The notes below the pieces were generated by a model. That model did no database searches, was not told the origin of the DNA, and saw only the letters and a list, made by a program, of their open reading frames with translations. This document shows positions 1,628 through 54,941 of a stretch of 64,000 bases of DNA, piece after piece. The translations under genes were made by a program, and so were the position numbers. Source of the stretch: Ruminococcaceae bacterium R-25 (GTDB taxonomy: Bacteria; Bacillota; Clostridia; Saccharofermentanales; Saccharofermentanaceae); contig QGFZ01000002.1 of assembly GCA_003149065.1 (NCBI GenBank), forward strand, positions 496,001 through 560,000, given 5' to 3'. The number at the start of each line of letters is the position of its first letter. The stretch's first letter is position 1.

Positions 1628-3106
1628 TTAAGTAGTAGTTTCGCTTGGTTTTGCGGGAGGCTCACCGCCGTTGCCTCCAGGACCGCCTGACGGAGGATCT
1701 CCCGGAGGGTTCCCTGAAGGCTTCTCGCCTGACGGAGGATCACCGGGGAAGTCACCAGAGGGTTTCTCGCCGTCTGGCTTGCCGCCTGAAGGAGGTTCAC
1801 CGGGCATTCCGTCCGGTTTTCCGGATGATTCTGTTGCTATCGTAATAGCTGTTCCTGTTGAAGATGTGCCCGCTGTGTATTCGGTGCCGCCTACGTAGAG
1901 CTTGTGTCCGTTAAGATCAACCGCATCAGCTTCGCAGGTGAGGCCTGTGATATATGAATCGCCTGTGAGGACCCAGGTGGAACCCTTTTCGATCTCTACA
2001 TAAACTTCGCCTTCGTTGGCTGCGTTTATGGCGCCTGTGTATGTCGTGTTTTCTGAGAGATAGAGGTTAAGCGCGGAGACATTGTCGACTATGATATCGC
2101 CTGTCTGGGCCTGCTTCTTGAGGTAGAGATTTACCTTGCCGCCGTTGGAACCTTCAGAGCCCCAGCCTGCTGCAGCTTCTCTTAAGAAGACGCCGTTTGA
2201 ATCCTGATTTACTATCTCGACATTTTCAAGTGTTATCGTTGTCGCAGTGTTGTTTACGAAGAAGATGTCGCCGTTCTTATTTGTGATCGAGCCGCCACTC
2301 ATCGTGAATTTTGCAAGACCGACAGAAGCGTCGCCGGACATCGACTGGTAGATCATTACCGCATTATAGGAGATGGACTTGTCGCTGTTATGTTTTGTGT
2401 TATTGGCTGTGAGATTTACGTTATTAAGAGTGACTGAGTTCTTGCCTTCTACTACGACACCTTCAGACTGTGTGGATTCCAATGTCGCATTGCTGACTGT
2501 GATGTCTGCTGTGGAGTAGATGGCTGGAGAGCCCGTGCCGTCCGTTACATAAGTTCCGCCGTCAACCGTTACGGTTCCGCCGCCTCGGTCTGATCTGATC
2601 GCTGCAGAAGAATTGCCTGTCGTGTGAATATCGAGATTGGAGGCATTCATCGTACCGCCGCCTGTTGTCATGAGGCCGCCGGAGCAGTTGCCGGAAGTTG
2701 TGATGACGGAATTGCTGATGTTGACCGTCGTGCCGTTCCCGTATGAGAAGACTGCATTGGCGTGTGTGCCGTTTGTATCAACTGCGATTTCTGTGAGTGT
2801 TAATGTGGCGCCGTCGGTCGCGAAAATCGCGGCGTTGTCACCGTAGAAATCCGCTTCATCTCCTGATGCGGAATCACCTGTCTTGGTTACTTTAATGTTT
2901 GAATATTCGGCTGTATTTCCGCTGACTTCGATAGCGTGTTCGCCGTCATTAGCGTTCGTTATTTCTTCGCCAGTTACTACACTGTTAACTGTCGTCGCAG
3001 TAGTTTCTGAAGATTGATTATTTGAAGCAAGACAAGCTGTGACTGATACCGACATCGCAGCGGCAGTGGCTATTGCCAGTATGAGTAGAACCTTTTTCCT
3101 GATCAT
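1628..3106 (-). CDS. Secreted beta-helix lipoprotein with Pro/Gly-rich tail
   Basis: A 492-residue exported protein. Residues 1-24 are a lipoprotein signal peptide ending in VTAC, with the lipidated Cys at 25, followed by a Ser/Thr-rich linker. Residues about 55-410 are repeated short strands rich in T, N, G and V (for example VTVDGGTYV, ITVSNATLES), typical of a right-handed parallel beta-helix as in polymorphic-outer-membrane or pectate-lyase-like proteins. The C-terminal 60 residues are low-complexity repeats of GEKPSG/PPGDPPSGG type, likely a wall-spanning stalk. No catalytic site is recognisable, so adhesion or carbohydrate binding is inference. GGAGG lies upstream of the ATG; a terminator hairpin follows the stop. 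Confidence 0.75.
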   Translation of the reverse strand: MIRKKVLLILAIATAAAMSVSVTACLASNNQSSETTATTVNSVVTGEEITNANDGEHAIEVSGNTAEYSNIKVTKTGDSASGDEADFYGDNAAIFATDGATLTLTEIAVDTNGTHANAVFSYGNGTTVNISNSVITTSGNCSGGLMTTGGGTMNASNLDIHTTGNSSAAIRSDRGGGTVTVDGGTYVTDGTGSPAIYSTADITVSNATLESTQSEGVVVEGKNSVTLNNVNLTANNTKHNSDKSISYNAVMIYQSMSGDASVGLAKFTMSGGSITNKNGDIFFVNNTATTITLENVEIVNQDSNGVFLREAAAGWGSEGSNGGKVNLYLKKQAQTGDIIVDNVSALNLYLSENTTYTGAINAANEGEVYVEIEKGSTWVLTGDSYITGLTCEADAVDLNGHKLYVGGTEYTAGTSSTGTAITIATESSGKPDGMPGEPPSGGKPDGEKPSGDFPGDPPSGEKPSGNPPGDPPSGGPGGNGGEPPAKPSETTT

Positions 3107-14439: not shown

Positions 14440-15381
14440 ATGGCTGAACACAACTTTTGGCAAGACTTGCAGATCAACGACAATCTCGTAATCGATACGA
14501 TCCGCAGAGACGGAAAGGATACCATTTATTTCAAAGACAAGGATTCAAGATTCATTTGGAATAATGTCATGCACGCCAGGCAGTTCGGTTTGGAAGATCC
14601 TAACAAACTTATAGGAAAGAAGGACACGGATTTCTTTCCGGCTGAATTTGCCGAGAAGGCAAGAGCGCAGGAATTAGAGATCATGAGAACGGGCATCCCC
14701 GTCCTTAATGCCGAAGAAGAACTCTATCTTGATGAAGATACAGTAAAGTACTACAGCGCTTCCAAATATCCCTTATACGACAAGAATAATCAGATCGTAG
14801 GAACATGGGGTATCAGCCGCGATATTACAGAACAGAAGAAACTCGAGTTAGAGCTCGAGCGTTCCTATCACAAGATGGAACTCCTGGCACGTGTTGATGA
14901 CTTAAGCGGCCTTTATAACAGACGTTATTTCTATGAGACTTTGGAAAAGTATGCGAGCCTCTATGAAAAGAGAGCTGACAAGAGCACTTTTGCACTTCTC
15001 GTAGCAGACGTTGACGACATGAAGAACATCAACGAGCTCTATGGCCAGCAGAGCGGCGATAATGTCTTAAGATTTGTTTCAGAACTTCTGCTATCCAATG
15101 TCAGAACAGAAGATACATGCTTCAGAACAGGCGGCGATGAGTTTGCTGTAGTGATCCTTGATATCGATAAGGTCGCAGCAGTAGGCCTTGCCAAGAAGAT
15201 CGTAGAACACATCGCAAGCGAACCTGTGATCCTGGATGACGGCAAGAGAGAAAGAGTTACCATCTCGGCAGGTCTTGCCATGTTCGACAGCGAAGAGCCT
15301 GACCTTTCAGACCTGCTCTCCAGAGCTGAAAGAAAGCTCAACAAGTCCAAAAGAGAAGGAAAGAATAAGATGTCTTTCTGA
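14440..15381 (+). CDS. PAS-GGDEF diguanylate cyclase
   Basis: A 313-residue soluble signalling enzyme. Residues about 20-130 are a PAS domain (DKDSRFIWNNVMHARQFG, GKKDTDFF, GTWGISRDITEQKK), linked by a short coiled coil to a GGDEF domain. The catalytic loop is intact, G-G-D-E-F at 231-235, and an RxxD inhibitory site (RTED, 222-225) sits exactly five residues before it, so it should make c-di-GMP and be product-inhibited. No transmembrane helix: the PAS domain senses a cytoplasmic cue. GGAGAAATAA precedes the ATG. Downstream is the structured segment at 15.5 kb. Confidence 0.92.
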   Translation: MAEHNFWQDLQINDNLVIDTIRRDGKDTIYFKDKDSRFIWNNVMHARQFGLEDPNKLIGKKDTDFFPAEFAEKARAQELEIMRTGIPVLNAEEELYLDEDTVKYYSASKYPLYDKNNQIVGTWGISRDITEQKKLELELERSYHKMELLARVDDLSGLYNRRYFYETLEKYASLYEKRADKSTFALLVADVDDMKNINELYGQQSGDNVLRFVSELLLSNVRTEDTCFRTGGDEFAVVILDIDKVAAVGLAKKIVEHIASEPVILDDGKRERVTISAGLAMFDSEEPDLSDLLSRAERKLNKSKREGKNKMSF

Positions 15382-15499
15382 TCCTGACACAAACAGAAAT
15401 TGTTATTAACGATCCGTCCCTGGTGGCGGAACGTTTACTTTACGGGGTTTATTTCTTTGCATAGTTTTTCTTATTTCAAATCACTATTCATAAATATAT

Positions 15500-15610
15500 A
15501 AAAGGAGTTAAAGTGCTTTTCGGGTAAACGGGTGCAGGCCGGGAGATATCCCGGCCTTGCTTTTGGTGAGGTGACGAAAGGAGGGAAGCAAGGCCGGATA
15601 AGTCCCTTTT
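15500..15610 (+). ncRNA. Putative structured RNA or leader with mutually exclusive hairpins
   Basis: The 272-base gap after the diguanylate cyclase contains a GC-rich block. The segment CCGGCCTTGCTT (15551-15562) can pair with an upstream GGCCGGG arm (hairpin 15536-15557, GATA loop, followed by TTTT) or, over 12 perfect base pairs, with AAGCAAGGCCGG at 15586-15597. A weaker outer stem AAAAGG/CCTTTT (15500-15505 with 15605-15610) could enclose both. This is the layout of a terminator/antiterminator switch or a stable small RNA. I could not match it to a known riboswitch, SRP RNA or 6S RNA. Strand is uncertain because the next gene is on the minus strand. Confidence 0.45.
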
Positions 15611-15653
15611 ACGGAGAAAAATATGGGGTTTGAGCGGGCTGTCCTTGGCCGGT

Positions 15654-15947
15654 TTAAGCTACGCCCTTATCCTTACAATTGATCTGTTCATTAACCCTAT
15701 ATGTATGTGCAGATATAACTGCCGGATTGTTTACGCGCTTTATGGGAGTTACACGGACGGAAGAAGGTATACCTGTCCTTACTGTTCTGGAAAGTGATGC
15801 ATTAACAGAAGTCTTTGCGGGTCTGGAAGGTGCGGAGAGTGCCTTAAGATCTTCATCGTAATCTTTAAAGTAATCGATGCATCCTGAAGCGGCCTTGATA
15901 GTTACGAGGATAAAGAAGAAGAAAACCAACATATCAAACGGTGACAT
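15654..15947 (-). CDS. Small membrane-anchored hypothetical protein (97 aa)
   Basis: Starts at the ATG at 15947, preceded by GGAGGTATTTATT; a TTG five codons upstream overlaps that ribosome-binding site and is rejected. One N-terminal transmembrane segment (MLVFFFFILVTIKAASGCI), then a charged 75-residue tail rich in S, T, R and V, probably cytoplasmic or disordered. No family recognised. It is monocistronic, and the strong ribosome-binding site supports a real gene. Confidence 0.6.
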   Translation of the reverse strand: MSPFDMLVFFFFILVTIKAASGCIDYFKDYDEDLKALSAPSRPAKTSVNASLSRTVRTGIPSSVRVTPIKRVNNPAVISAHTYRVNEQINCKDKGVA

Positions 15948-16048
15948 AATAAATACCTCCAAAAAGATCGTATGTTCTTTGTTGGAGGTACTATATCACG
16001 GTTAAAGTTCCAATAATGGGACTAAAATGCAAAAACAAACAAAAACGA

Positions 16049-16068
16049 ACAAAAATTTGTTTTTGTTC
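16049..16068 (-). terminator. Terminator of deoB-deoC
   Basis: On the minus strand, GAACAAAA pairs with TTTTGTTC across a short loop just after the deoB-deoC stop at 16076 and is followed by long T-rich runs (GTTTTTGTTTGTTTTT). AT-rich stem, but correct position and polarity. Coordinates approximate. Confidence 0.5.
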
Positions 16069-16075
16069 TTGCGGA

Positions 16076-17911
16076 TCAGTTTCCGAGTTTGGATGCACCG
16101 ATCCTGTCAGCGCCGTTTTCGATCATTTCCCTGGCAGATTCTACTGTTCTGATGCCGCCTGCTGCCTTGATCCTTACATCCTCGCTGACATTATTCTTCA
16201 TGAGAACGATATCTTCGACTTTGGCGCCTGCGCTGCCGAAACCTGTCGAAGTCTTAATGAAATCTGCTTTAGCGTCGCTTACTATCCTGCAGAGACGGAT
16301 CTTTTCATCTTCTGTAAGATCGCAGGTCTCAATAATGACCTTAAGGATCGCGCCCTTTTCGTGAACGGCATCCGCGATGAGCTTGATCTCTTCGAAGACT
16401 TCATCGTATCTGCCGGCCTTTACGAAGCCGACATTGATAACCATGTCGATCTCGGATGCGCCATTGTCACAGGCTTCCTTTGCTTCATAGACCTTAGAGC
16501 CTGTTGTGGAATATCCGTTGGGGAATCCGATTACGGTGCAGACTGAGACTCTGCCGTCAGAGAATCTTACTGCATCCTTTACATAGCAGGGAGGGATGCA
16601 GACAGAAGCTGTCTTAAGGGAAGCTGCTCTTTCAATAAGATCTTTGATGTCGTCAGTCGTTGCTGTGGTCTTAAGGTTTGTAAGATCAACATAGCTCATG
16701 ATGTTATCAGGATCAGGCTTGTTTGTATCAGCCGCAGGGCAGAAGTCCCTCTTGTAACTTCTGGACATGAGAGCGGAAAGAACGATTCCTGCGATGTTGT
16801 TAAACCCTGTCAGCTCGCCCATGTTTGAAGGGATCTTGTATCCGTCGCCATAGATGAGGAGCGGGATGCATTCTCTTGAATGATCAGTGGAAGTAGTCGA
16901 AGGATCGCAGCCGTGGTCAGCCGTGATGATGAGAAGGTCATCTTCTTTTAGCTTACTTAAGATAGTGCCCAAAGCATCGTCAAACTCGTGCATTGCGGTA
17001 TTGTAGCCTTCGATATTGTTCCTGTGGCCGTACTTCATGTCGAAGTCGACGAGGTTAGTAAAACAGAGGCCGTTAAAGTCACGGTCCATCATCTCGATGG
17101 TCTTGCTGATGCCTTCTGTGTTGCCCTTGGTGGGATTGGATTCCGTAAGTCCTCTTCCTGCGAAAAGGTCATAGATCTTGCCGATCGAGATAACCTCAAA
17201 ACCTTCGCTCTTTAAGAGGTCGAGCATTGTAGATGATGGAGCGGCAAGAGAGAAATCGTGACGGTTAGCTGTCCTTGTGAAGTTACCGGGTTCACCTACG
17301 AAGGGTCTTGCGATGACTCTGCCGACTGCATTATCTCCGCACATTACTTCACGGGCCTTTTTGCAGACATCGTAGAGTTCTTCAAGAGGGACTACCTCTT
17401 CGTGAGCTGCGATCTGGAGAACGCTGTCTGCTGATGTATAGATGATGAGCTTTCCGGTCTTCATGTGCTCTTCGCCGAAGTCGCGGATGACATCAGTTCC
17501 GCTGTAAGGTTTGTTGCAGAGGAATTCCTTGCCGGTTGCCTTTTCGAGTTCTCTCATGACGTCTTCCGGGAAGCCGTCGGGATATGTGGGCTGGGCCTTG
17601 TCAGAAATGATTCCGGCTATTTCCCAGTGGCCGATCGTGGAATCCTTGCCTGCTGATATCTCTCTTACTCTTGCGTAAGATCCGATAGGAGAGGGAATCG
17701 TTTCCTGGGCTTTTTTATAGTTTAAGATCCTGGGATCGTCTTCGCCGTCGATCGCGAGAAGTCCCATTTTCGCGAGGTTCGGAAAAGCTTCATTTGAATA
17801 GGAGAGTACCGCTGCAAGAGTGTTGCTGCCTTCGTCGCCGAACTTTGCCGCATCAGGCGCGCCGCCGATTCCGAAGCTGTCCAAAACTATCAGAAAAACA
17901 CGTTTAGCCAT
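16076..17911 (-). CDS. deoB-deoC: Fused phosphopentomutase / deoxyribose-phosphate aldolase
   Basis: A 611-residue single frame. Residues 1 to about 395 are a full phosphopentomutase: VLDSFGIGGAPDA with metal-binding Asp11, GKDSTIGHWE (88-97) around the phospho-acceptor, and ITADHGCDPST with the Asp/His metal ligands (332-333). Residues about 405-611 are deoxyribose-phosphate aldolase, with EIDMVINVG (Asp489), the Schiff-base lysine in FIKTSTGF (Lys553) and Lys582 in IKAAGGIRT. The pair converts deoxyribose-1-P to the 5-phosphate and cleaves it to glyceraldehyde-3-P and acetaldehyde, finishing deoxynucleoside catabolism. DeoB and DeoC are usually separate proteins; all catalytic residues look intact. 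DeoC here lacks a start of its own. Confidence 0.93.
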   Translation of the reverse strand: MAKRVFLIVLDSFGIGGAPDAAKFGDEGSNTLAAVLSYSNEAFPNLAKMGLLAIDGEDDPRILNYKKAQETIPSPIGSYARVREISAGKDSTIGHWEIAGIISDKAQPTYPDGFPEDVMRELEKATGKEFLCNKPYSGTDVIRDFGEEHMKTGKLIIYTSADSVLQIAAHEEVVPLEELYDVCKKAREVMCGDNAVGRVIARPFVGEPGNFTRTANRHDFSLAAPSSTMLDLLKSEGFEVISIGKIYDLFAGRGLTESNPTKGNTEGISKTIEMMDRDFNGLCFTNLVDFDMKYGHRNNIEGYNTAMHEFDDALGTILSKLKEDDLLIITADHGCDPSTTSTDHSRECIPLLIYGDGYKIPSNMGELTGFNNIAGIVLSALMSRSYKRDFCPAADTNKPDPDNIMSYVDLTNLKTTATTDDIKDLIERAASLKTASVCIPPCYVKDAVRFSDGRVSVCTVIGFPNGYSTTGSKVYEAKEACDNGASEIDMVINVGFVKAGRYDEVFEEIKLIADAVHEKGAILKVIIETCDLTEDEKIRLCRIVSDAKADFIKTSTGFGSAGAKVEDIVLMKNNVSEDVRIKAAGGIRTVESAREMIENGADRIGASKLGN

Positions 17912-22001: not shown

Positions 22002-23156
22002 TTAAATCCCAAATAACTCTTTGACAGCGTCCTTCTTAACTCCGGAACCGATAACGACGATCTTGCCTGTTACGTCCGAAGTGCCTGTTCTGACCTCGAC
22101 CTCTTCAGGTACGAAGTCGAAATGGATCCATGATCCGTCTTCGCCGGCAACGATACCCTTTGAACGGAGGACCATGCCGTACTTTTCTGTATCATCCAAT
22201 GCCTTGAGGGCATCTTCGATCTGAGCTTTGGTGAACTTCTTTGATGTTTCGAATCCGATAGAATCGAAAACCTCATCTGCGTGATGATCATGATGGTGGT
22301 GATGATGCTCATGCTCATGCTCATCGTCGTCATCGTCGTGGTCGTGATGATGGTGGTGTTCATGCTCATCGTGGTCATCATCGTCATGGTCGTGGTGGTG
22401 ATGATGGTGCTCATGCTCGTCATCGTCATCATCGTCGTCATCGTGATCATGGTGGTGATGTCTGCACTCTTCGCAATCGCAGTCCTCACCATGGTCGTGA
22501 TGATGGTGTGCATGCTCTAACTCGTGCTGTTCAGCTTCGAGGAGTGCTGCTGCCATATCAGCTGCTGTGAGGGGCTCTTCGATTGCCTTGAGGATCTGAA
22601 CACCTGAGAGGTCATCCCAAGGTGTTGTGATGATCTGTGAGTGATCGTTGATCTCACGGATAAGAGCGATTGCCTGATCGAGCTTTTCCTGTGTGATATT
22701 GCCTGTACGGCTCAAGATGATCGTTCCTGCATACTTGATCTGGTTCTCATAGAATTCCTTGAAGTTCTTAAGATAGATCCTGCACTTGGAAGCGTCGATT
22801 ACTGTGACTGTACCGCAGATCTCAGTTCCCTCAACGCGCTTAACTGCAGCTACTACGTCAGAGAGCTTGCCTACGCCGGAGGGTTCTATCAGGATCCTGT
22901 CAGGTGCGAACTGTTCGATTACATCCTTCAAAGCAGTGCCGAAGTCGCCTACGAGACTGCAGCAGATACAACCGGAATTCATCTCTGTAATGTTGATGCC
23001 TGATTCCTTGAGAAAACCGCCGTCGATACCGATCTGGCCGAACTCATTTTCGATGAGAACTAACTTCTGGCCGTTGTATCCGTCAGCGATAAGCTTCTTG
23101 ATCAATGTTGTCTTGCCTGCTCCCAGAAATCCTGAGAAGATGTCTACTTTTGTCAT
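22002..23156 (-). CDS. CobW/G3E-family GTPase with His/Asp-rich metal-binding loop
   Basis: A 384-residue COG0523 GTPase: Walker A GFLGAGKTT (9-17), the metal-binding CxCC signature in SGCICCSL (61-68), Walker B region RILIEPSGVG, and a C-terminal CobW_C domain (about 295-384). The guanine-specificity position reads SRTGN rather than NKxD. Residues 211-293 are an extraordinary run of His, Asp and Glu, with a CxCxxC cluster (226-231), certainly a metal-buffering loop. Such proteins deliver or insert Zn2+ or Co2+ into client proteins in the cytoplasm. It follows the second CobW-like gene by 23 bases and precedes trkA by 5. Confidence 0.92.
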   Translation of the reverse strand: MTKVDIFSGFLGAGKTTLIKKLIADGYNGQKLVLIENEFGQIGIDGGFLKESGINITEMNSGCICCSLVGDFGTALKDVIEQFAPDRILIEPSGVGKLSDVVAAVKRVEGTEICGTVTVIDASKCRIYLKNFKEFYENQIKYAGTIILSRTGNITQEKLDQAIALIREINDHSQIITTPWDDLSGVQILKAIEEPLTAADMAAALLEAEQHELEHAHHHHDHGEDCDCEECRHHHHDHDDDDDDDDEHEHHHHHHDHDDDDHDEHEHHHHHDHDDDDDEHEHEHHHHHHDHHADEVFDSIGFETSKKFTKAQIEDALKALDDTEKYGMVLRSKGIVAGEDGSWIHFDFVPEEVEVRTGTSDVTGKIVVIGSGVKKDAVKELFGI

Positions 23157-31296: not shown

Positions 31297-33786
31297 ATGA
31301 AATTCGGGCATTTCGACGATTCAAGAAAAGAATACGTTATCAACACTCCAAGAACACCTTATCCCTGGATCAACTACCTGGGAAATCAGGGATTCTTCTC
31401 ACTTATTTCCAACACAGCTGGCGGTTACAGCTTCTACAAGGATGCAAGACTCAGAAGAATCACACGTTACCGCTACAACAATGTGCCTTTGGACATGGGC
31501 GGCCGTTATTTCTACATCAATGACAACGGCACAGTCTGGAATCCCGGCTGGTCTCCGGTAAAGACCGAACTTGATGAATATGAGTGCCGCCACGGTATGG
31601 GCTACACCATCATCAAGGGTAAGAAGAACGGCCTTAAGGCTGAAGTTACTTTTTTCGTTCCCCAGAACTACGACGGTGAAGTTCAGCAGGTAGTTCTCAC
31701 AAACGAAGGCACAGAAGCTAAGAGCTTCTCCATTTTCTCCATCGCTGAATGGTGCCTCTGGGATGCTCAGGATGACTGCACAAACTTCCAGAGAAACTTC
31801 TCAACAGGCCGTGTTGAGATCGAAGGCTCCACAATCTATCACGTAACAGAATACAGAGACAGACGTAATCACTATGCTTTCTACACAGTAAACGACGAGA
31901 TCGACGGTTACGATACAGACCGTGATGCATTCCTCGGCAGCATCTACAACGGCTGGGACAACCCGGAGACAGTTAAGGCAGACAAGCCTTCCAATTCTTT
32001 CGCTGACGGCTGGTCACCTGTAGCTTCACACTACAAGAAGGTTACTCTCGCACCCGGCGAATCCAAGACATTGATCTACATCTTAGGCTATGCTGAGAAC
32101 CCTCAGGACAAGAAGTTCGCAGCAGAAAAGCCTGCTAACCTCCTTACAAGAGAGACATGGGTCCTCAACAAGGAGAAGGCTTATGCCATGATCGACAAGT
32201 ACAACACACCTGAGAAGGTTGCTGCAGGTCTTGAAGAACTCAAGACAACATGGAACAACCTCCTCTCGATCTTCAAGGTTGACACACCTGATGACAAGGT
32301 CAACCGTATGGTAAATATCTGGAACCAGTATCAGTGCATGGTTACATTCAACCTCTCACGTTCTGCTTCCTACTTCGAATCCGGAATCGGCAGAGGTATG
32401 GGCTTCAGAGATTCCAACCAGGATATCTTAGGATTTGTACACCAGATCCCTGAGCGTGCAAGAGAAAGACTCATCGATATTGCTTCAACACAGCTTTCTG
32501 ACGGCGGATGCTATCACCAGTATCAGCCTCTTACAAAGAAAGGTAATGCAGATATCGGCGGCGACTTCTCCGATGACCCGCTCTGGATGATCCTTTCCGT
32601 TGCAGCTTATATCAAGGAAACAGGTGACTGGGGCATCCTCGACGCTAATGTTCCTTTCGATGACGATCCGGAAGGAAAGCACACAATGCTCGAGCACCTG
32701 GATGTTTCCTTCTATCACATCGTTAACAACTTAGGACCTCACGGACTTCCTCTCGCAATGCGTGCTGACTGGAACGACTGTATCAACCTTTCCTGCTTCT
32801 CTGACACACCCGGTGAGTCTTTCCAGACATACACCAACCCCAAGTTTAAGGCAGAGGGCGGTTACTCCAAGGTTGCTGAGTCTGCATTCGTTGCAGCGCT
32901 CTTCACATACACAGGTCCTGCTTATGTCGGTATCCTGGAGCACCTTGGCAAGGCTGATGAAGCTGCAAAGGCTCAGGCTGAGATCGATAAGATGAAGAAG
33001 AATACTATGGAATCTGCTTTCGACGGCGACTGGTTCATCAGAGCTTATGACGCAAACGGCGAAAAGATGGGCTCCAAGGAATGCGAAGAGGGTAAGATCT
33101 TCATCGAACCCCAGGGCTTCGCTGTTATGTCTGAGATCGGTAAGGATGTCGGCGCTGACATCAAGACATTGAACTCCATTGACAAGTATCTCAACTGCGA
33201 GTTCGGTCTCGTTCTCAACAACCCCGCATACACTAAGTACTATATCCAGTACGGTGAGATCTCCACATATCCGGGCGGATACAAGGAGAACGCCGGTATC
33301 TTCACACACAACAACGCATGGATCATCTGCGCAGAAGCTTATGCCGGCAGAGGAGACAAGGCTTTCGAGTACTATTCAAAGATCGCTCCTGCATTTACTG
33401 AAGAGACATCTGATATCCACAAGACAGAACCTTATGTTTACGGTCAGATGATTGGCGGTAAGGATGCCAAGAACTTCGGTCAGGGCAAGAACTCCTGGCT
33501 CACAGGTACAGCAGCTTGGAACATGGTTGCTATTTCCCAGTACATCCTCGGCGTTAAGCCTGAGTTCGACGGCCTCAGAGTAGATCCTTCAATCCCCGCA
33601 GCTTGGGATGGATTTACTGCTACACGTCAGTTCAGAGGCGACACATACGAGATCACGATCAAGAATCCTGATCACGTAAACAAGGGCGTCAAGTCACTTA
33701 CTGTTGACGGCGTTGCTGTTGACGGCTGCATCGTTCCTGTTGCAGGCGACGGCAAGTCTCACAAGGTCGAGGTAGTGCTTGGCTAA
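31297..33786 (+). CDS. cbp: Cellobiose phosphorylase (GH94)
   Basis: An 829-residue cytoplasmic enzyme that splits cellobiose with phosphate into glucose-1-phosphate and glucose. It matches the cellobiose-phosphorylase clade along its length: [15 protein letters not shown] at the start, [41 protein letters not shown], and [12 protein letters not shown]. The general-acid Asp is at 491 in RADWNDC, in line with Asp490 of the Cellvibrio gilvus enzyme. Length is normal (about 810-830). No signal peptide. GGAGG lies upstream. Codon use is strongly biased (CTC, GGC, AAG, few rare codons), as in highly expressed genes, so cellobiose is likely a major energy source. Confidence 0.95.
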
Positions 33787-33825
33787 TATCGATAATCAAG
33801 TCGGTAATTTATTGTCAGTTTAAGC

Positions 33826-33862
33826 AAGACCCCGTGGTTTATTGACCGTGGGGTTCCTTGCT
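33826..33862 (+). other. Intercistronic hairpin between the two GH94 genes
   Basis: ACCCCGTGG and CCGTGGGGT pair over nine positions (two G-T wobbles) around a TTTATTGA loop, extended by CAAG/CTTG. No T-run follows, so it is more likely an mRNA-processing or stabilising stem, or a leaky terminator, than a full stop. Confidence 0.5.
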
Positions 33863-33904
33863 GAAATACAGAAAAAAAGAAATACATTCTCATGGAGGAT
33901 CAAC

Positions 33905-36892
33905 ATGGGTTACATTGGTGAAAAAGCAAGAGGCGAAAGACTTCCCGCAAAAGAACTGTTACTCGATAAGTTCGGCGATACGATCGTAGCAGGAGGCGTC
34001 TCAGCCCAGTATGTTCGTTTTGGAAAGAATCCTGTCGTTATCGGTATTTCCGGTCTTAAATTCGACAGCATGGCAGTTAACATCTTAGCTTCTGATGATG
34101 TCGTTTTCGAGCAGTTTACTGCAATGATCAACAACGGATACAGCATCCTTATCGTCAGAAACGAAGACGATTTCAGAGCATTTACGGAAAAGGACGGCAA
34201 CCTCGCTGAAGCTAAATTCAGTGAAGCAGTTCTTAACAGATGCGCAGAGCTCATCAAGAGTACGGATGCATGGGGCGGAAAGCTTGCGACAAACGGCGAA
34301 CTTGCTTTTGATCCTTCCACACCTTCACCCGGACCTCACTACTATACAAATATGCTCATCGGTAACCGTATCGACTTCGACTTCCCGTTGCAGTCAACAC
34401 CGAAGAGCACTGTCGACAGCTTGGGCGGCGGTTCGTTCAGATCACATGCTGATACACAGGTTCTTGCAACCAGATGGGACTATCTCCCTGAAGAGAACGG
34501 TTTCCCTGCAAACAGACAGTTCTATCTTGTCGAGAACGGCAAGAAGATCTTCTGGTCGGGTGATGCTGTTGCAGAAGGCCTCGAAAAGATCCGCACAGTA
34601 CATTCACAGAACAGAACAACTATAAGCTATGAGCTTTCCTGCGGTCTTAAGATCAAGAGAACTATCTTCATCGTTCCCCAGAGAGAAGGCATGCCGGTAG
34701 CTTCCGAAGCACAGCTCATCGATATCGAGAATACGACATCTGAAGACAAGGATCTGAGGATCGTCTGCACAGGTATGTTCGGTACAAAGCAGACACATGC
34801 TCTTTCCGAAGACGTTATCTTCACAACAGTTGTCGGAGAGTCACAGGTATTCTTCGATGAGAATAATGATATCCGTGCGGTATCTGCAGATCCCAACCCG
34901 AAGTGGACAAAGGGCGATATCAGATTCAACGAGACAGTAGTCCATACTGCAGACGGAGATTTCTTCCCGGATCAGTACAGCGTAAGATATGCTGATTTCG
35001 TAGGTTCAGGAAGCCTTTCAAATCCTGAATTCATTTATCCTCTCGCATCCAGACCTTCCAGAAAGGGACCGGGATTCTTCGCTACATCCACACCTTTCAC
35101 GGTCAAGGCAAACGGCACTGTCCGCGTTGATAGCGTTACATGCCTTTCTTCTGACTGCGTAAACGAGAACTTCGTAGTCGACAAGACACCTGCTGAAGAA
35201 GCAGAGGCAGTAGCTAACTACATCAAGGATCCCGCTAACCTCGCTAAGGATCTCCAGGATGTTATCGACTTCACAGGCAAGTATGCGGGCTACATGAAGA
35301 TCGAGCACGAGGACCAGAACTTCGAAGCTTATGTAAATAACAACCTTCCTTTCCAGGTCTTCTACCAGACATTCGTATCCAGATCTTTGGACTGGACACA
35401 GAAGGGTTACCGTGAGATCGGCTTCAGAGAGATCCAGGACATCTTCGCTTCCATGTACTATTTCGCAGGCATGGGCAATACGGAATTCGTTAAGAAGATG
35501 CTCGCAGGATGGATCGAAAACGTTTACGAAGACGGTTACACAAACCACAACTTCTACTGGATCGGAAAAGAACCCGGCTGGTGGTCAGATGACGGCCTCT
35601 GGCTCCTGCAGGCATTAGACAGATATCTCGGCCTTACAGACGATTATGCATTCCTCGAAGAGGAGTTCGTAATGGCAGGCACCAAGGAAAAGAAGACTGA
35701 TGCAGGCGTTAAGAGAAAGCTCAAGGATACGATCAAGGCTATCCTCATGTACAGCGGCAGGATCTCTTTGGGCAAGCACGGCATCCCGCTCATCGACAGA
35801 GCTGACTGGAACGACTGCTTGAGAGTCGATCCTGACTGTATCTCCGGTAAGGATAAGGTAGCTGAATACAAAGAGCAGATCGCTGCTGCAGGCAAGGCAT
35901 ACGGCGAAGTTCCTTACGATTCAGAGTTCTCCGAATCCGTAATGAACGGCTTCCTTCTTAAGGTTGCATTGGATGCTGCACAGACAATGTTCAGAAAGAT
36001 CGGCGACCCTGCAGCTGATGATATGAAGCAGCTCTCAGACAAGCTCGCTGAAAATCTCAGAAAGTTCTGCTGGAAGGATGACTTCTACTGCAGAGTCCTC
36101 TTCAACAGAAAGGACAGAACAGACATCTCTTATCTCGGTGCAAAGGGCGACGGCCTTGCTGTAGAAGCAGGACATCCCGGTACATACTTCCTCAACAGCT
36201 TCTCCTGGTCACTCCTGGCCGGCGTTGCTTCCGAGGAAGAGATCAACACGATGCTCGATTCACTCGACAAGTACCTGAAGACACCTTACGGCTTCAGACT
36301 TTGTTCCACAGTAGATTATCCGAGGATCGCACCTAAGATCGACGTAGCACTCTACTATCCCGGTGACCGTGAGAACGGCGGTGTATTCAAGCACGCAAAC
36401 ATGATGGCATGCTCTGCTATGCTCGGCGCCGCAAAGACAGTTAAGGATGAGTCACTTGCTTCAAGACTTGCTGATACAGCTTACTGGATCATTGATAAGA
36501 TCTTACCTTTCAATACATTGAAGTCACCTTTCGTTACATGCGGTAACCCCAGATGGTGCACACAGTACAACAACAGCCAGACAGGCGAGAACATCGGACC
36601 TACATTGTCCGGTACTTCCACATGGCTCCTTCTCTCACTCTTCCAGTGCTTCGGCGTTGAGTTTACGAGCGAGGGATTAAGAGTTGAACCTATCCTCAGA
36701 CAGACTGACAGAAAGCTTGATGTTAAGGTTTCCGTCTGCGGAACAACTTACGATATCCATATCACTAAGCCTGAGGGCTTTATCCGTGCACAGGACGGCA
36801 TAAAGGTATCCCTTGACGGCGCTGCAGTAGAGGGCACACTCCTTCCTGTTGCAACAGACGGCAAGACACATCAGGTTGAAATCAGCTTCTAA
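33905..36892 (+). CDS. cdp: Cellodextrin phosphorylase (GH94)
   Basis: A 995-residue cytoplasmic GH94 enzyme that phosphorolyses longer cello-oligosaccharides, releasing glucose-1-phosphate and the shortened chain. It tracks the Clostridium thermocellum cellodextrin phosphorylase throughout: PGPHYYTNMLIGNR, TPKSTVDSLGGGSFRSHADTQVLATR, NGFPANRQFYL, GYREIGFREIQDIFASMYYF, NHNFYWIGKEPG, and the catalytic Asp634 in DRADWNDC. Length fits that clade (about 980-1000). I start at the ATG at 33905 after GGAGGATCAAC; the frame open from 33842 adds an unconserved 21 residues. Works with cellobiose phosphorylase just upstream. Confidence 0.95.
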   Translation: MGYIGEKARGERLPAKELLLDKFGDTIVAGGVSAQYVRFGKNPVVIGISGLKFDSMAVNILASDDVVFEQFTAMINNGYSILIVRNEDDFRAFTEKDGNLAEAKFSEAVLNRCAELIKSTDAWGGKLATNGELAFDPSTPSPGPHYYTNMLIGNRIDFDFPLQSTPKSTVDSLGGGSFRSHADTQVLATRWDYLPEENGFPANRQFYLVENGKKIFWSGDAVAEGLEKIRTVHSQNRTTISYELSCGLKIKRTIFIVPQREGMPVASEAQLIDIENTTSEDKDLRIVCTGMFGTKQTHALSEDVIFTTVVGESQVFFDENNDIRAVSADPNPKWTKGDIRFNETVVHTADGDFFPDQYSVRYADFVGSGSLSNPEFIYPLASRPSRKGPGFFATSTPFTVKANGTVRVDSVTCLSSDCVNENFVVDKTPAEEAEAVANYIKDPANLAKDLQDVIDFTGKYAGYMKIEHEDQNFEAYVNNNLPFQVFYQTFVSRSLDWTQKGYREIGFREIQDIFASMYYFAGMGNTEFVKKMLAGWIENVYEDGYTNHNFYWIGKEPGWWSDDGLWLLQALDRYLGLTDDYAFLEEEFVMAGTKEKKTDAGVKRKLKDTIKAILMYSGRISLGKHGIPLIDRADWNDCLRVDPDCISGKDKVAEYKEQIAAAGKAYGEVPYDSEFSESVMNGFLLKVALDAAQTMFRKIGDPAADDMKQLSDKLAENLRKFCWKDDFYCRVLFNRKDRTDISYLGAKGDGLAVEAGHPGTYFLNSFSWSLLAGVASEEEINTMLDSLDKYLKTPYGFRLCSTVDYPRIAPKIDVALYYPGDRENGGVFKHANMMACSAMLGAAKTVKDESLASRLADTAYWIIDKILPFNTLKSPFVTCGNPRWCTQYNNSQTGENIGPTLSGTSTWLLLSLFQCFGVEFTSEGLRVEPILRQTDRKLDVKVSVCGTTYDIHITKPEGFIRAQDGIKVSLDGAAVEGTLLPVATDGKTHQVEISF

Positions 36893-49873: not shown

Positions 49874-50644
49874 ATGGTAGAGATCCTTACCAACGAAGAA
49901 TTCGAAAAGATGAAGGCCGCAGGAAAGATCCTGCAGCATGTTTTCAAGGCATGCCGCGATGAGATCAAGCCCGGCATCTCCACACATGATGTCGATAAGC
50001 TCTGCTATGACATCATAAGAAGCTACGATGCCATTCCTTCATTCCTCAATTACGGACAGCCGCCGTTCCCCGGAACGATCTGCGCTTCCGTTAACGATGA
50101 AGTCGTTCACGGCATCCCGAGAAAGAACAGAATTCTGGAAGAAGGCGACATCCTTTCCGTTGACGTCGGCGCGATCCTTGACGGTTACCAGTCAGACGCA
50201 TGCAGAACATACATGGTCGGCGAAGTAGCTCCTGAAGTAAAAGATCTCGTTGAGCGCACGGAAAAGTCCTTCTGGATCGGCCTTGAATATGCCAAAGTCG
50301 GCATGAGGACAGGCGATATCGGACATGCTATCCAGGAATACTGCGAAGGCTTCGGTTACGGAGTAGTAAGAGAACTCACAGGTCACGGAATCGGAACAAC
50401 GATGCACCAGGATCCAGACGTTCCCAACTACGGAAGACCGGGACACGGCTATAAACTTAAAAAGGGTATGGCAATCTGCATCGAACCGATGATAACATTG
50501 GGTACACGTGAGATTGAGATCCTGGATGACAGGTGGACGATAGTTACACAGGACGGCAAGCCTGCCAGCCACTATGAGAATACGATTTTAATTACGGATG
50601 AGGGTCCGTATTTGACAACCTATGACTATGAGGAGGGTTTTTAA
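49874..50644 (+). CDS. map: Methionine aminopeptidase, type I
   Basis: A 256-residue metalloprotease removing N-terminal Met from nascent proteins. The five metal ligands are visible in [22 protein letters not shown] (two Asp), [12 protein letters not shown] (His), CIEPM (Glu) and [12 protein letters not shown] (Glu). Its stop shares a base with the infA start (TAATG). The small KOW-domain gene found between map and infA in many Firmicutes is absent. Confidence 0.96.
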
Positions 50645-50871
50645 TGGCGAAGGAAGATGTTATTGAAGTACTGGGAGTAGTTGATGAAGCATTGCCCAAT
50701 GCAATGTTCAAGGTAAAGCTCGACAGCGGACACATTGTTCTTGCTCATTTGTCAGGAAAGCTTAGACAGAATTACATCAAGATTCTTCCGGGCGACAAGG
50801 TAACAATGGAGATCTCGCCATACGATCTTTCCAGAGGCAGAATCACCTGGAGAGGCGAGAAGAAAAAATAA
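50644..50871 (+). CDS. infA: Translation initiation factor IF-1
   Basis: A 75-residue OB-fold protein binding the ribosomal A-site during initiation. Normal length and sequence ([32 protein letters not shown]). Its stop is only two bases from the ATG of an AT-rich glycerophosphotransferase-like gene rather than near rpmJ, which is its usual neighbour and lies almost 4 kb further on. Confidence 0.96.
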
Positions 50872-50873
50872 TT

Positions 50874-52130
50874 ATGCGGTTTATCGAATGTATCGAAAAC
50901 TTATATATTGATCCAGCAACCGGGAGCATGTTGTTTTCTGTGTTGCTGGGTATTTTTATTTCTTCCGGTTTTTTTTTAAGATTATTATTGATTAAAATTA
51001 AAACAATTTTAGGTGGAAAAACCACTATTAAACCTGAAAAGCATAGTAAGTTTCTAATATACGCAGATGACAAGCGGTATTGGAACAACTTTATGCCAAT
51101 TTTGAAAGAGTTTGAACGCAGGAAAATTGAAGTCTCTTTTTGGACATCGTCAGAAGATGACCCTGTTTTTTCACAAGTGTATAACTATGTACATCCCGTT
51201 TTTATTGGAAATGGAAACAAGGCATTCTTAAAGCTGAATGCTGCTAAAGCCGATATTTTGTTATCTACTACACCTGGTTTGGATGTTTTGCAGTGGAAAA
51301 GATCAAAGGAAGTAAAAAAATATGTCCATTTTTTCCATGATGCCAGTACTGCTTTATTCTATAGAATGTTTCAAATTGATTTTTATGATGTTTTACTGAC
51401 GGTTTCTGATTTTCAAACTGAAGAAGTCAGAAGAATTGAAAAAATGCGTGGAATACCCAATAAAGAGATAAAAGTGGTTGGACTACCCTATTTTGATGAG
51501 CTTAAAAAAAAACTGGAAAACACAAAGAAGCCACAGAAATCCAATAAAGTCATTTTAATAGCACCTTCATGGGGAAAATCCTGTTTGTTGTATACATTAG
51601 GAGAGAAATTATTCGACAGAATAATTGAAAGTGGATATGATATAGTTTTTCGTCCACACCCACAATCCTATACAGCTGATAAAGAAATAATAGAGCAAAT
51701 ACGTACTAAATATGCTAATTGCTATAATTTCTCTTGGAATACTGACAATGATAATTTTGAGATATTGAACAAAGCGGATTTATTAATTAGTGACTTTTCT
51801 GGCATTATTTTTGACTTTGTTTTAATCTTTGGAAAACCTGTAATGTATGCATCTGTGAATGGTTTTGATAATAGCATATATGATAGTGCTTGGATAGATG
51901 AAAAACTTTGGAACTTTAAAGTCCTTCCTACTATTGGCTGTGAAATATCCAAAGAAAACATGCCTAATCTAAAAAGAACTATTGATGAAATATTATACAG
52001 TAATAGATTTGAACAAGGAATTAAGAGCGCACGGGATTACGCATGGAAGAACCAGGGACATGCTGCGGAAACTATTGTTGATTATCTTGTGAATCTTCAG
52101 TCAGATATTTCCAAACAAGTAGAGGCATAA
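50874..52130 (+). CDS. Membrane-anchored CDP-glycerol glycerophosphotransferase-like protein
   Basis: A 418-residue protein. Residues 11-18 (YIDPATGS) lead into one transmembrane helix (about 19-41), followed by a cytoplasmic GT-B-fold domain of the Glyphos_transf (TagB/TagF) family. Hallmarks are KYVHFFHDASTALFYR, VVGLPYFDEL, the R-P-H-P motif (260-263) with VILIAPSWG before it, and ISDFSGIIFDF (Asp307), equivalent to the SDYSS motif that helps bind the CDP-polyol. It would transfer glycerol-phosphate or a related unit to a membrane-linked glycan. It starts 2 bases after infA and is followed 2 bases later by the YidC-sulfatase fusion. Family good, substrate unknown. Confidence 0.82.
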   Translation: MRFIECIENLYIDPATGSMLFSVLLGIFISSGFFLRLLLIKIKTILGGKTTIKPEKHSKFLIYADDKRYWNNFMPILKEFERRKIEVSFWTSSEDDPVFSQVYNYVHPVFIGNGNKAFLKLNAAKADILLSTTPGLDVLQWKRSKEVKKYVHFFHDASTALFYRMFQIDFYDVLLTVSDFQTEEVRRIEKMRGIPNKEIKVVGLPYFDELKKKLENTKKPQKSNKVILIAPSWGKSCLLYTLGEKLFDRIIESGYDIVFRPHPQSYTADKEIIEQIRTKYANCYNFSWNTDNDNFEILNKADLLISDFSGIIFDFVLIFGKPVMYASVNGFDNSIYDSAWIDEKLWNFKVLPTIGCEISKENMPNLKRTIDEILYSNRFEQGIKSARDYAWKNQGHAAETIVDYLVNLQSDISKQVEA

Positions 52131-52132
52131 AC

Positions 52133-54718
52133 ATGATTCTGTTGAATGCTTTATGGAACATCATAATTGCTCCTCTAGAACTGGTTTTTGAGGTTATTTT
52201 TGTTTTTGCATATAAGATTACTAACAGTGAATTGATAGCAATTATTCTTTTGAGCCTTGTTGTAAGCACCTTGGTTCTGCCTCTTTATATGAAGGCTGAG
52301 CGTATTGAGATGGAAGAACAAAAGAAAGAAAAAGAACTATCTCGTTGGGTTTCTCATATCAAAAAGTGTTTTCGTGGTGATGAACGATATATGACACTTA
52401 ATGCATATTATCGTGAGAATCAATACAATCCTATATATCAGCTTAAGAGTTCGATTTCAATTTTACTTCAAATCCCGTTTTTTCTGGCAGCTTATAATTT
52501 TTTAGGAAATTATGCGTCTGATGAATTTTTAAGTAAGCCGGATGGTTTTTTTACCATAGGCAGTATAAGTGTTAATGTGTTGCCAATATTGATGACAATG
52601 ATTAATCTGGTTGCAACATTTATTTACACAAAAGGTCTTCCTGTCAGAAAGATTTTAAGATCTCTGATTCTCCCATTAGTATTCTTAGTGCTTTTGTATA
52701 ACTCGCCTTGTGCTCTTGTTATATATTGGACAATGAACAATATATATTCATTGATTAAGATAATAATTATTAAGTTTGTAAGCGAAAATAAGCACAACCC
52801 GGATTTGAATTTACAAAATAAGCGCAGGACAGAATCAGGTAAATGTATTAACAGGATAAATTCATTTTTTGATCAGAAGCCCCAAACGGCATGTTTTGTT
52901 TTGCCAATGATGTTTATGTCGGTATTTACAGGTTTCTTGATTCCGCTTGATTATCTTAGTGCTTCTCCGGAAGAATTTATTAATGCTACTAATCCTCAGA
53001 ATCCGCTTTTGTATTTATTATCGACAGTGTTTGTGTCAATAGGATTCTTTACTCTTTGGCCTGCAGTGTTTTATTTCCTGGCAAACAACAAGATAAAACA
53101 CATAATGGCTGCAACAGCAATCGGCGGTTCTGTTTTCTCCGCGATTAATTATTTATTTGGTGCAGATACAGGAACAATTAATACGGTTTTGGTGTTTGAT
53201 CAGGCACCAAGTTATACGTTGTTGCAGAAAACTCTAAATATTTGTCTGCTTGTGCTTATAGTAACAGCAGTCTTTTTCCTGTATAGATTCAAAAAGTCAA
53301 TTAGTGTGTTTTTTATAGCGACGATTCTTACAACTGTTTCTATATCAGTGATAAACGCAAAGAAGACAAATGATTCGTACCAATCAGTTATTAATCATAT
53401 AGATGACTTCAGGGAAGAAAAGGAGCCCAGAATCACTTTGTCTGCAAATGGGTATAACGTAATGGTCATTATGCTTGACAGAGGTTCTTCAGAATTAGTT
53501 CCTTACGTGTTTAATGAATTTCCTGAGATTAAGAATAAGTTTGACGGTTTTGTATTTTATCCTAACAGCACGTCATTTGGGATTAAGACTCTACATGCTT
53601 CTTCTGCATTATTTGGCGGATATGAGTACACGCCGGAACGAATTGATGAAAGAGCAAATGAGTCTTTGAAGGATAAACATGATGAATCACTAAAAGTATT
53701 GCCAAAACTATTTAGTGATCAAGGATATAATACAACTTTAATGGATCTTCCATATCCTGGTTGGACTCAAACGGGTGATTACTCTGCTTTTTCAGACATT
53801 GGTAATTGTGAGACGTATCACGCAGTAGATTATTTCAACAAAGAAAGCGAAATATATATCAATACCGAAAACCGAAGGAATCGCAACTTGTTTTTGTACA
53901 GTGTTTTCAGATGTGTTCCTACGTGTTTTAAGGAAATAATCTATGACAACGGATATTATCTTTGGTCCAATAAAGATGCATATGATGCATCAGAGATTTT
54001 GCCGAATTATAAAGTTTTGGAGAATCTTGATGACATGACTTATATTGATAATGAATCTGATGGAAGTCTGTTTGTGATCGATAATGAGACTACACACGAT
54101 ATTCAACGGCTTAAAAATTTTAACCCATATGAAGTCTTTCCGGCCGATGAGGATTTTGAGGGTTATTATATATCTGATGGTAACAAAGAAATCTATTTAG
54201 AAACGTGGTTGCAAACTGCAACATATGAAAGCACAGTAGCCGCCTTAAGAGAATTGGGCAATTATTTTGATTATTTGAGAAGCTGCGGAATATACGATAA
54301 TTCCCGAATTATCGTTGTCAGCGATCATGGAATTGATTTAGACATTCATAAAGAATTGTCTTTGGATGATATCAGCGCCGAGTATTTTAATTGTATGTTT
54401 TTTATCAAAGATTTTGATTCATCCGGGTATAAAACGGATTATACGTTTATGACAAATGCTGATGTTCCTACTGTAGCAACAAAAGGAATTATAAATAATC
54501 CGGTCAATCCGTATACTGGAAAGCCAATTAATTCTGATCTGAAATATTCCGATCTATATATTGGATATAGTCTTACTTTCGACAGAAGGCTTTGGAATCC
54601 CGATGTAAACACCGGAAACACATTTTTTTATGATCAGAACTTCGCTTGGTACAAATTAATCAATGAAAATGTGTTTATAAGAGAAAACTGGGTTAAGGTA
54701 GAAAAACCCGGTGATTAA
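52133..54718 (+). CDS. YidC/Oxa1-like domain fused to an alkaline-phosphatase-superfamily (sulfatase/LTA-synthase-like) domain
   Basis: An 861-residue membrane protein. Residues 1 to about 218 follow the YidC/Oxa1 plan: first helices, VLPLYMK (48-54), a charged hairpin (55-100), then ISILLQIPFFLAAYNFL and two more helices ending LVIYWTMNNIYSLIK. The groove Arg expected about five residues before the LPL motif is Ser45. Residues about 250-405 add four or five helices. From about 440 comes an extracytoplasmic alkaline-phosphatase fold: VMVIMLDRGSS (Asp449), candidate nucleophile Thr486 in SFGIKTLHASSALFGG, ETTHDI (His656) and VVSDHGID (Asp731, His732). Likely adds or moves phosphoglycerol, phosphoethanolamine or sulfate groups on a surface polymer. 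The fusion is unusual. Confidence 0.8.
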   Translation: MILLNALWNIIIAPLELVFEVIFVFAYKITNSELIAIILLSLVVSTLVLPLYMKAERIEMEEQKKEKELSRWVSHIKKCFRGDERYMTLNAYYRENQYNPIYQLKSSISILLQIPFFLAAYNFLGNYASDEFLSKPDGFFTIGSISVNVLPILMTMINLVATFIYTKGLPVRKILRSLILPLVFLVLLYNSPCALVIYWTMNNIYSLIKIIIIKFVSENKHNPDLNLQNKRRTESGKCINRINSFFDQKPQTACFVLPMMFMSVFTGFLIPLDYLSASPEEFINATNPQNPLLYLLSTVFVSIGFFTLWPAVFYFLANNKIKHIMAATAIGGSVFSAINYLFGADTGTINTVLVFDQAPSYTLLQKTLNICLLVLIVTAVFFLYRFKKSISVFFIATILTTVSISVINAKKTNDSYQSVINHIDDFREEKEPRITLSANGYNVMVIMLDRGSSELVPYVFNEFPEIKNKFDGFVFYPNSTSFGIKTLHASSALFGGYEYTPERIDERANESLKDKHDESLKVLPKLFSDQGYNTTLMDLPYPGWTQTGDYSAFSDIGNCETYHAVDYFNKESEIYINTENRRNRNLFLYSVFRCVPTCFKEIIYDNGYYLWSNKDAYDASEILPNYKVLENLDDMTYIDNESDGSLFVIDNETTHDIQRLKNFNPYEVFPADEDFEGYYISDGNKEIYLETWLQTATYESTVAALRELGNYFDYLRSCGIYDNSRIIVVSDHGIDLDIHKELSLDDISAEYFNCMFFIKDFDSSGYKTDYTFMTNADVPTVATKGIINNPVNPYTGKPINSDLKYSDLYIGYSLTFDRRLWNPDVNTGNTFFYDQNFAWYKLINENVFIRENWVKVEKPGD

Positions 54719-54731
54719 GGACAAAAATCAG

Positions 54732-54759
54732 TTGAAAACCAAATAGATTCTGCTATAAT
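54732..54759 (+). promoter_or_regulatory. Strong promoter restarting the ribosomal operon after the insert
   Basis: TTGAAA (54732-54737), a 16-base spacer and TATAAT (54754-54759) with an extended -10 TGC directly before it. It lies 13 bases after the stop of the inserted fusion gene and about 70 bases before rpmJ, so rpmJ-rpsM-rpsK-rpsD-rpoA-rplQ need not depend on transcription through the insert. Confidence 0.75.
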
Positions 54760-54827
54760 AGTTCAGCATGCGCTCAAAAGGCGCCTGTATTTGTTGTGGA
54801 AAAATAACAGCAACAGGAGGTACTAAT

Positions 54828-54941
54828 ATGAAAGTACGACCGTCAGTAAAGCCGATGTGCGAAAAGTGCAAGATCATTCGCAGAAACGGCAAAGTTATGG
54901 TCATTTGTTCCGACCCTAAGCATAAGCAGAGACAGGGTTAA
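54828..54941 (+). CDS. rpmJ: Ribosomal protein bL36
   Basis: A 37-residue protein, full length for bL36, beginning [14 protein letters not shown]. The zinc ligands are Cys11, Cys14, Cys27 and His32 (C+ form). AGGAGGTACTAAT precedes the ATG. It normally follows infA directly; here it is separated from infA by the 3.9-kb insert and has its own promoter. Confidence 0.95.

Follow-up and report, generated by a model that had tools for sequence, protein, structure and literature searches.

We have found that in Ruminococcaceae bacterium R-25 a YidC fold and an LtaS-type enzyme are joined in a single membrane protein. The gene, which we call FUS, is located at 52133..54718 (+) of the stretch of 64,000 nucleotides analyzed here (the window, to which coordinates without a locus or contig label refer), and codes for 861 residues comprising a YidC-fold domain, a five-helix membrane domain and an LtaS-type catalytic domain (open reading frame, Pfam and AlphaFold2). 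Beside it lies a partner gene with a PF04464 domain, here called TAG. Our preferred interpretation, to which we give an even chance of being right, is that FUS is a membrane transferase of the LtaS/EptA/YejM type with an extra N-terminal domain derived from YidC, which works with TAG in the decoration of surface glycans. In the predicted model a full YidC comes first in the chain, and after it a full transferase made of five helices and an outer domain. The FUS family are large membrane proteins of rumen and gut Clostridia that genome pipelines presumably label as 'YidC/Oxa1 family insertase'.

FUS is one intact open frame of 861 codons, from the ATG at 52133 to the TAA ending at 54718. Dozens of full-length homologs without internal stops were detected in other genomes, and the dN/dS against an 88% identical homolog (locus L007) was 0.19; the three domains taken separately gave 0.21, 0.22 and 0.15. 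On these grounds we rejected a frame artefact joining two genes, and the claim of the sequence-only reading that one chain of 861 residues joins both domains is upheld. The AlphaFold model of the whole chain, which that reading had proposed as a check, had a mean pLDDT of 89.6 and a pTM of 0.81 (alignment of 81 sequences).

The first 220 residues (52133..52792, +) have the YidC/Oxa1 fold by Pfam, AlphaFold2, Foldseek and a profile search of the PDB (E 8e-16). In the model they comprise an amphipathic helix (2-30), TM1 (33-47), the C1 hairpin (49-95), TM2 (100-127), TM3 (149-165), TM4 (171-188) and TM5 (193-220). The Pfam family 60KD_IMP (PF02096) was matched at residues 35-214 with an E of 8e-21 (75.1 bits vs. 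a cut-off of 35), and the NCBIfam model of the YidC C-terminal part (TIGR03592) gave 63.3 bits, below its cut-off of 84.3. Residues 1-225 modelled alone reached a pLDDT of 91 and retrieved eight Foldseek matches with E<0.001, all of them YidC (3wo6, 3wo7, 6al2, 3wvf, 6y86), with probability 1.00 and query TM scores of 0.53-0.66. The five-helix YidC-like domain that had been proposed for residues 1-220 is therefore confirmed by profile and by structure, YidC being the only confident match. The fused domains formed one clade in the tree, apart from the housekeeping YidC and with support of 100/100, which indicates a single origin; one canonical row (L173) is probably in a wrong frame, and the fusion clade is unaffected by it. 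Conserved residues specific to the fusions include Glu20, Ser41, Tyr52, Asn148, Asn158, Tyr165, Asn202 and Lys209. The genome to which the window belongs (3.07 Mb in 7 contigs) carries three fusions and one canonical YidC, a separate copy located at rnpA-yidC-jag. With the canonical gene elsewhere, the possibility that FUS was the housekeeping YidC with an odd tail was rejected.

After the YidC part comes a second membrane domain (residues 253-423; 52889..53401, +), with helices at 253-277, 292-316, 319-341, 363-383 and 387-423 according to AlphaFold2 secondary structure and hydropathy; the several further helices that had been predicted are thus five. In known YidC proteins the C-terminal end of the domain is cytoplasmic. 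If the YidC part of FUS ends there too, the five additional helices would place the catalytic domain outside the cytoplasm.

This presumably extracytoplasmic domain spans residues 430-861 (53420..54715, +) and belongs to the alkaline-phosphatase superfamily, as had been read from the sequence, the closest structures being LtaS, LtaP and PbgA together with sulfatases. With the whole FUS model, Foldseek retrieved sulfatases, LtaP, LtaS and PbgA/YejM at E values of ~1e-7, in a list that also included phosphonate monoester hydrolase and MCR-1. By the profile search of the PDB the sequence is only remotely similar to LtaS/LtaP (E 0.0075), and the viral structure library gave matches only to sulfatase-like proteins of giant viruses. 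The Pfam Sulfatase profile (PF00884), which had been anticipated as support, matched residues 442-737 with an E of 9.5e-4, below the cut-off of 25 bits; the support therefore holds through the profile match itself, the two FUS paralogs of the same genome that pass the cut-off and the LtaS-type structure matches, and falls short for the window protein taken singly. No protein beyond the fusion paralogs exceeded the PF00884 cut-off in this genome, so that no ordinary LtaS was detected in it. In 291 Clostridia genomes searched at E 1e-15 the C-terminal part was never detected without the YidC part, and a split ancestor was therefore not found.

The catalytic residues are invariant in 81 of 81 relatives. 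They are Asp449 (53477..53479, +), proposed as metal ligand and paired with Glu255 of Staphylococcus aureus LtaS by order and by the PF00884 alignment; Thr486 (53588..53590, +), the proposed nucleophile (Thr300 in LtaS); His655 (54095..54097, +), a proposed substrate histidine (His416 in LtaS); and the pair Asp731-His732 (54323..54328, +), proposed metal ligands (Asp475-His476 in LtaS). The pairing of residues between FUS and LtaS rests on order, invariance and profile alignment. Among the candidates named in the sequence-only reading, Asp449, Thr486, Asp731 and His732 stand, and His656 has to be replaced by its neighbor His655. In LtaS, Mn is held by Glu255, Thr300, Asp475 and His476, and His416 contacts the substrate (PMC9131456); the active-site residues of YejM include Asp268 (PMC7576196).

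TAG (50874..52130, +) codes for 418 residues, with a YIDPATGSML motif at the N-terminus and a single hydrophobic helix ahead of the PF04464 domain (CDP-glycerol glycerophosphotransferase-like). The domain scored 47.9 bits (cut-off 22.1), but it covers only positions 132-293 of the 367 of the profile; a full-length PF04464 member elsewhere in the genome scored 310 bits. The motif, in the form YIDPxTGxML, and one conserved hydrophobic (anchor) helix were present in 58 of 58 TAG homologs. One homolog (L095, 11535-13700) is of 721 residues, with ~300 extra C-terminal residues that have no Pfam match. The TAG-FUS pair sits inside a ribosomal-protein operon (50644-54941), between infA (50644..50871, +; PF01176), whose stop is followed by the TAG start after 2 nt, and rpmJ (54828..54941, +; PF00444). 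At L007 the pair occupies the same place, after map. A putative sigma-70-like promoter, TTGAAA-16-TATAAT (11 of 12 positions, by consensus match only), lies between FUS and rpmJ (54732..54759, +), and Rfam gave no match in the window.

The window also contains the following genes. A chain of 611 residues (16076-17911, -) combines two enzymes that break down deoxynucleosides, a phosphopentomutase (Metalloenzyme, PF01676) and a DeoC-family aldolase (PF01791). A CobW/G3E GTPase (22002-23156, -) has a very long His/Asp-rich insert with HHHH and DDDD runs, likely a metal-binding stretch. An adjacent pair of GH94-type phosphorylase genes (31297-36892, +) codes for 829 and 1016 residues, the second one matching only the catalytic domain model, and a secreted repeat-like protein of 492 residues with a Gly/Pro-rich tail (1628-3106, -) has no Pfam match.

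FUS was detected in 73 of the 85 species of the genus, with a median of 4 matches per positive genome and at least 11 in some. Beyond the genus it was found in 16 of 299 genomes of one family, probably Lachnospiraceae because the majority of the distant named relatives bear that name, in 9 of 291 genomes across the class and, in the phylum sample, in one further family. Phage or plasmid carriage was rejected, as the phage, plasmid and IMG/VR collections contained no match. TAG depends on FUS across the genomes of the genus: of the 73 genomes with fusions, 71 had a strong TAG homolog (E<1e-90), and the 12 without fusions had none (Fisher p 7e-13, although the species are related members of one genus and the counts are not independent). 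Five of these 12 had only weak PF04464 relatives (~1e-30), and two genomes (G292 and G241) had FUS and no TAG. The search for this architecture beside glycerophosphotransferase-type genes, which the sequence-only reading had also proposed, was positive: in 35 of 55 FUS arrays TAG is the immediate same-strand neighbor, often with an overlap of the gene ends, in layouts (T for TAG, F for FUS) such as TF, FT, TFF, TFTF and longer tandems; the other 20 have no adjacent TAG. The distances of TAG correlated with those of the YidC part (partial correlation 0.49) and of the catalytic part (0.41) to a similar degree, and so give no sign of which FUS domain TAG touches.

Genes for activated donors of small phospho- or phosphono-groups are linked to FUS. 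Within loci of up to 20 kb, 15 of 49 contained CDP-choline-type genes (choline kinase, a LicC-like cytidylyltransferase and a BCCT or EamA transporter) or phosphonate genes (PEP mutase, phosphonopyruvate decarboxylase, a PhnW-type aminotransferase, Fe-ADH and a cytidylyltransferase). We estimate that one or two such loci would be expected by chance, given the few genes of this kind per genome of 2-3 Mb. In 11 of the 15 a donor-type gene (LicD in L119) was the very next open reading frame, on the same strand in 8 of these 11. The clearest arrangement is that of another genome of the genus (G135, locus L091), where CMP-phosphonate genes lie between FUS and TAG in one operon, in the order FUS, NTPt/Cyt/PEP-mutase, Fe-ADH, phosphonopyruvate decarboxylase and TAG, all on one strand and with overlaps or short gaps between neighbors. 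At L119 a choline kinase/cytidylyltransferase gene and a BCCT transporter gene precede TAG-FUS-TAG-FUS, and the order at L126 is FUS-LicC-LicA-EamA. No donor-activation gene is found beside FUS at the locus of the window itself. The same genome has PEP mutase, a PhnW-type aminotransferase, two NTP transferases and LicD at ~875-890 kb of contig C1 (L142), and a TagD-like/SDR gene beside the full PF04464 gene at 751-754 kb of the same contig (L141). The former of these two L141 genes (14990-16186 of that locus) codes for a short-chain dehydrogenase joined in one chain with a TagD-like cytidylyltransferase, and together they likely represent a CDP-polyol pathway. Single proteins of ~590-605 residues with a winged helix, a LicC-like cytidylyltransferase and a choline kinase were also seen beside fusion loci (L098 7512-9284, L107 15188-17005, L119 1551-3329 and L127 3925-5706); the DNA-binding part suggests self-regulation.

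With these elements we propose a scheme in which the direction of the reaction, the lipid intermediate and the task of the YidC domain are what we infer. TAG, anchored in the membrane by its YIDPxTGxML helix, would transfer in the cytoplasm a phospho- or phosphono-alcohol from a CDP- or CMP-activated donor to a lipid, the candidate groups being phosphocholine-like ones, aminoethyl- or hydroxyethyl-phosphonate and perhaps glycerol phosphate. The membrane part of FUS would hand the loaded lipid to the outer domain, where Thr486, with a metal held by Asp449, Asp731 and His732, would accept the group and transfer it to a glycan that has been exported. As for the YidC domain, it would no longer act as a general insertase, its groove having been repurposed, most likely to hold the TAG anchor helix or the lipid-linked donor. 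Against the scheme speak the locus of the window, with its lack of a neighboring donor gene, the 20 arrays with no TAG next to them, the two genomes that have FUS and no TAG, and the fact that phosphocholine already has a known route in cytoplasmic LicD-type transfer.

In the outer domains of LtaS and EptA a threonine takes the group from a lipid, and the source of the group in both is ordinary phospholipids, so that a lipid made by TAG is not required by the chemistry. FUS could accordingly be an LtaS-like phosphoglycerol polymerase or transferase that uses phosphatidylglycerol directly and makes or caps a glycerol-phosphate polymer, with TAG making the primer and the YidC domain as a structural addition. 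LtaS and LtaP are among the top structure matches, the partner is a PF04464 protein, no other PF00884 protein of the genome is over the cut-off, and the TagD-like/SDR gene stands beside a full PF04464 gene elsewhere. We consider it rather unlikely all the same, as the neighbors in relatives are choline-type or phosphonate activation genes and not glycerol-phosphate ones, and the many divergent copies of FUS per genome suit varied small decorations better than one polymer. The sequence-only reading had suggested a new use of the YidC fold, for example as a groove that hands a lipid-linked polyol-phosphate chain to the catalytic domain. Its setting, surface glycans instead of general insertion, agrees with the PF04464 partner, the donor genes and the separate canonical YidC; the polymer itself fares worse, the neighbors indicating single CDP/CMP-activated groups (choline-type and phosphonates) more than a polymer.

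The groove of the YidC domain has lost its charge. Codon 45 (52265..52267, +) is a Ser at the site of Arg366 of Escherichia coli YidC (PMC8920935). Of 41 fusion domains, 32 have Asn, 7 have Ser and 2 have Gln at this site, and none has Lys or Arg (0/41), whereas Lys or Arg is found in 29 of 29 canonical clostridial YidCs. The positive groove charge is described in all YidC homologs, where it keeps the groove hydrated; in E. coli the Arg can be dispensable if residue 517 is aromatic or polar, and in YidC2 of Streptococcus mutans it is essential although a Trp is present at the matching site (PMC8920935). The fusions keep an aromatic pair in TM5, Tyr198-Trp199, at the 516-517 site, and the loss of charge alone is therefore no proof of lost insertase activity. 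The loss fits a changed use of the domain, without indicating which. We regard as unlikely that the domain is still an insertase, dedicated to the TAG anchor helix or to the membrane helices of FUS itself, with an independent C-terminal enzyme: the positive charge is gone in all 41 members compared, the S. mutans precedent goes against it, and a fixed covalent link to one enzyme would be odd for a catalytic insertase, even if the whole fold is kept (C1 hairpin and Tyr198-Trp199 included), the E. coli precedent allows for it, the one anchor helix of TAG is conserved in 58 of 58, and among the three parts of FUS the YidC part varies least over 36 fusion-partner pairs (mean difference 0.40; middle part 0.68, catalytic part 0.53). 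A hydrolytic outer domain, which would take off or edit phospho-substituents installed by TAG or LicD in the manner of a phosphocholine esterase, is very improbable, since the invariant Thr is that of LtaS/EptA and not the Cys/Ser of formylglycine sulfatases, the ten-helix membrane part is typical of lipid-using transferases and TAG never occurs without FUS in the genus, which would be odd if FUS only undid its work, despite PF00884 members being mostly hydrolases and sulfatases and phosphonate monoester hydrolase appearing among the top structure matches.

The transferase working with TAG that we favor resembles several known systems. As in FUS, five membrane helices in LtaS and LtaP precede an outer domain of the alkaline-phosphatase superfamily, which has an Asp/Glu, Thr and Asp-His metal site and a substrate His; FUS differs in its extra N-terminal YidC domain, remote sequence, choline/phosphonate context and PF04464 partner. 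The phosphoethanolamine transferases EptA/MCR-1 and YejM/PbgA also combine a membrane domain with an outer domain and a Thr nucleophile, but they serve lipid A or cardiolipin functions of Gram negatives and have neither a YidC domain nor a nucleotide-activated donor pathway. With the insertases YidC, SpoIIIJ and YidC2 (Oxa1 superfamily) the head of FUS shares the complete five-helix fold, the C1 hairpin and a PF02096 match over the cut-off; unlike them, it lacks the groove charge, is fused to an enzyme, is present in many copies beside the canonical YidC and forms a separate clade. In the LicD and phosphonyl-tailoring (Pnt) pathways CDP-choline or CMP-phosphonate feeds the decoration of surface glycans, and the same activation genes adjoin FUS in 15 of the 49 loci, that of the window not among them; LicD, however, is a single transferase of another fold acting on the cytoplasmic side, whereas the FUS system would use a PF04464 protein and an outer transferase. 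Three-component glycan decoration consists of a lipid-linked sugar synthase, a flippase and an outer GT-C transferase. By analogy only, TAG and FUS would follow the same logic of loading a lipid inside, moving it and transferring outside, with a phospho-group in the place of the sugar and the mover and the outer enzyme in one chain.

We found no description of the union of YidC with an LtaS-type enzyme, or of the TAG partner, in the open-licence full-text literature, nor any relevant open-licence paper that links YidC to sulfatases, teichoic acids, CDP-glycerol or phosphonates. Both superfamilies were already known; it is their union that is new to the literature searched, and the YidC domain is really unusual on a transferase of the LtaS/EptA type. 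As a tentative extension, the YidC-derived domain might act as the transmembrane carrier of a lipid-linked donor of phospho- or phosphono-groups and, with TAG and the outer enzyme, constitute a two-gene machine not described before, by which these Clostridia would carry out the last, so far missing, steps of phosphonate and phosphocholine surface decoration. The Oxa1/YidC fold is known from protein insertases, and a stable, single-origin and multi-copy family in which this fold is joined to a surface-polymer enzyme, with the groove charge lost, would extend the range of the fold. The known route for phosphocholine is cytoplasmic LicD-type transfer, and the gene company of FUS suggests a non-LicD route of phosphocholine decoration in bacteria of the gut and rumen. 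A 2019 survey (PMC6697681) called the late steps of phosphonyl tailoring enigmatic, and the same gene company makes FUS a testable candidate for them.
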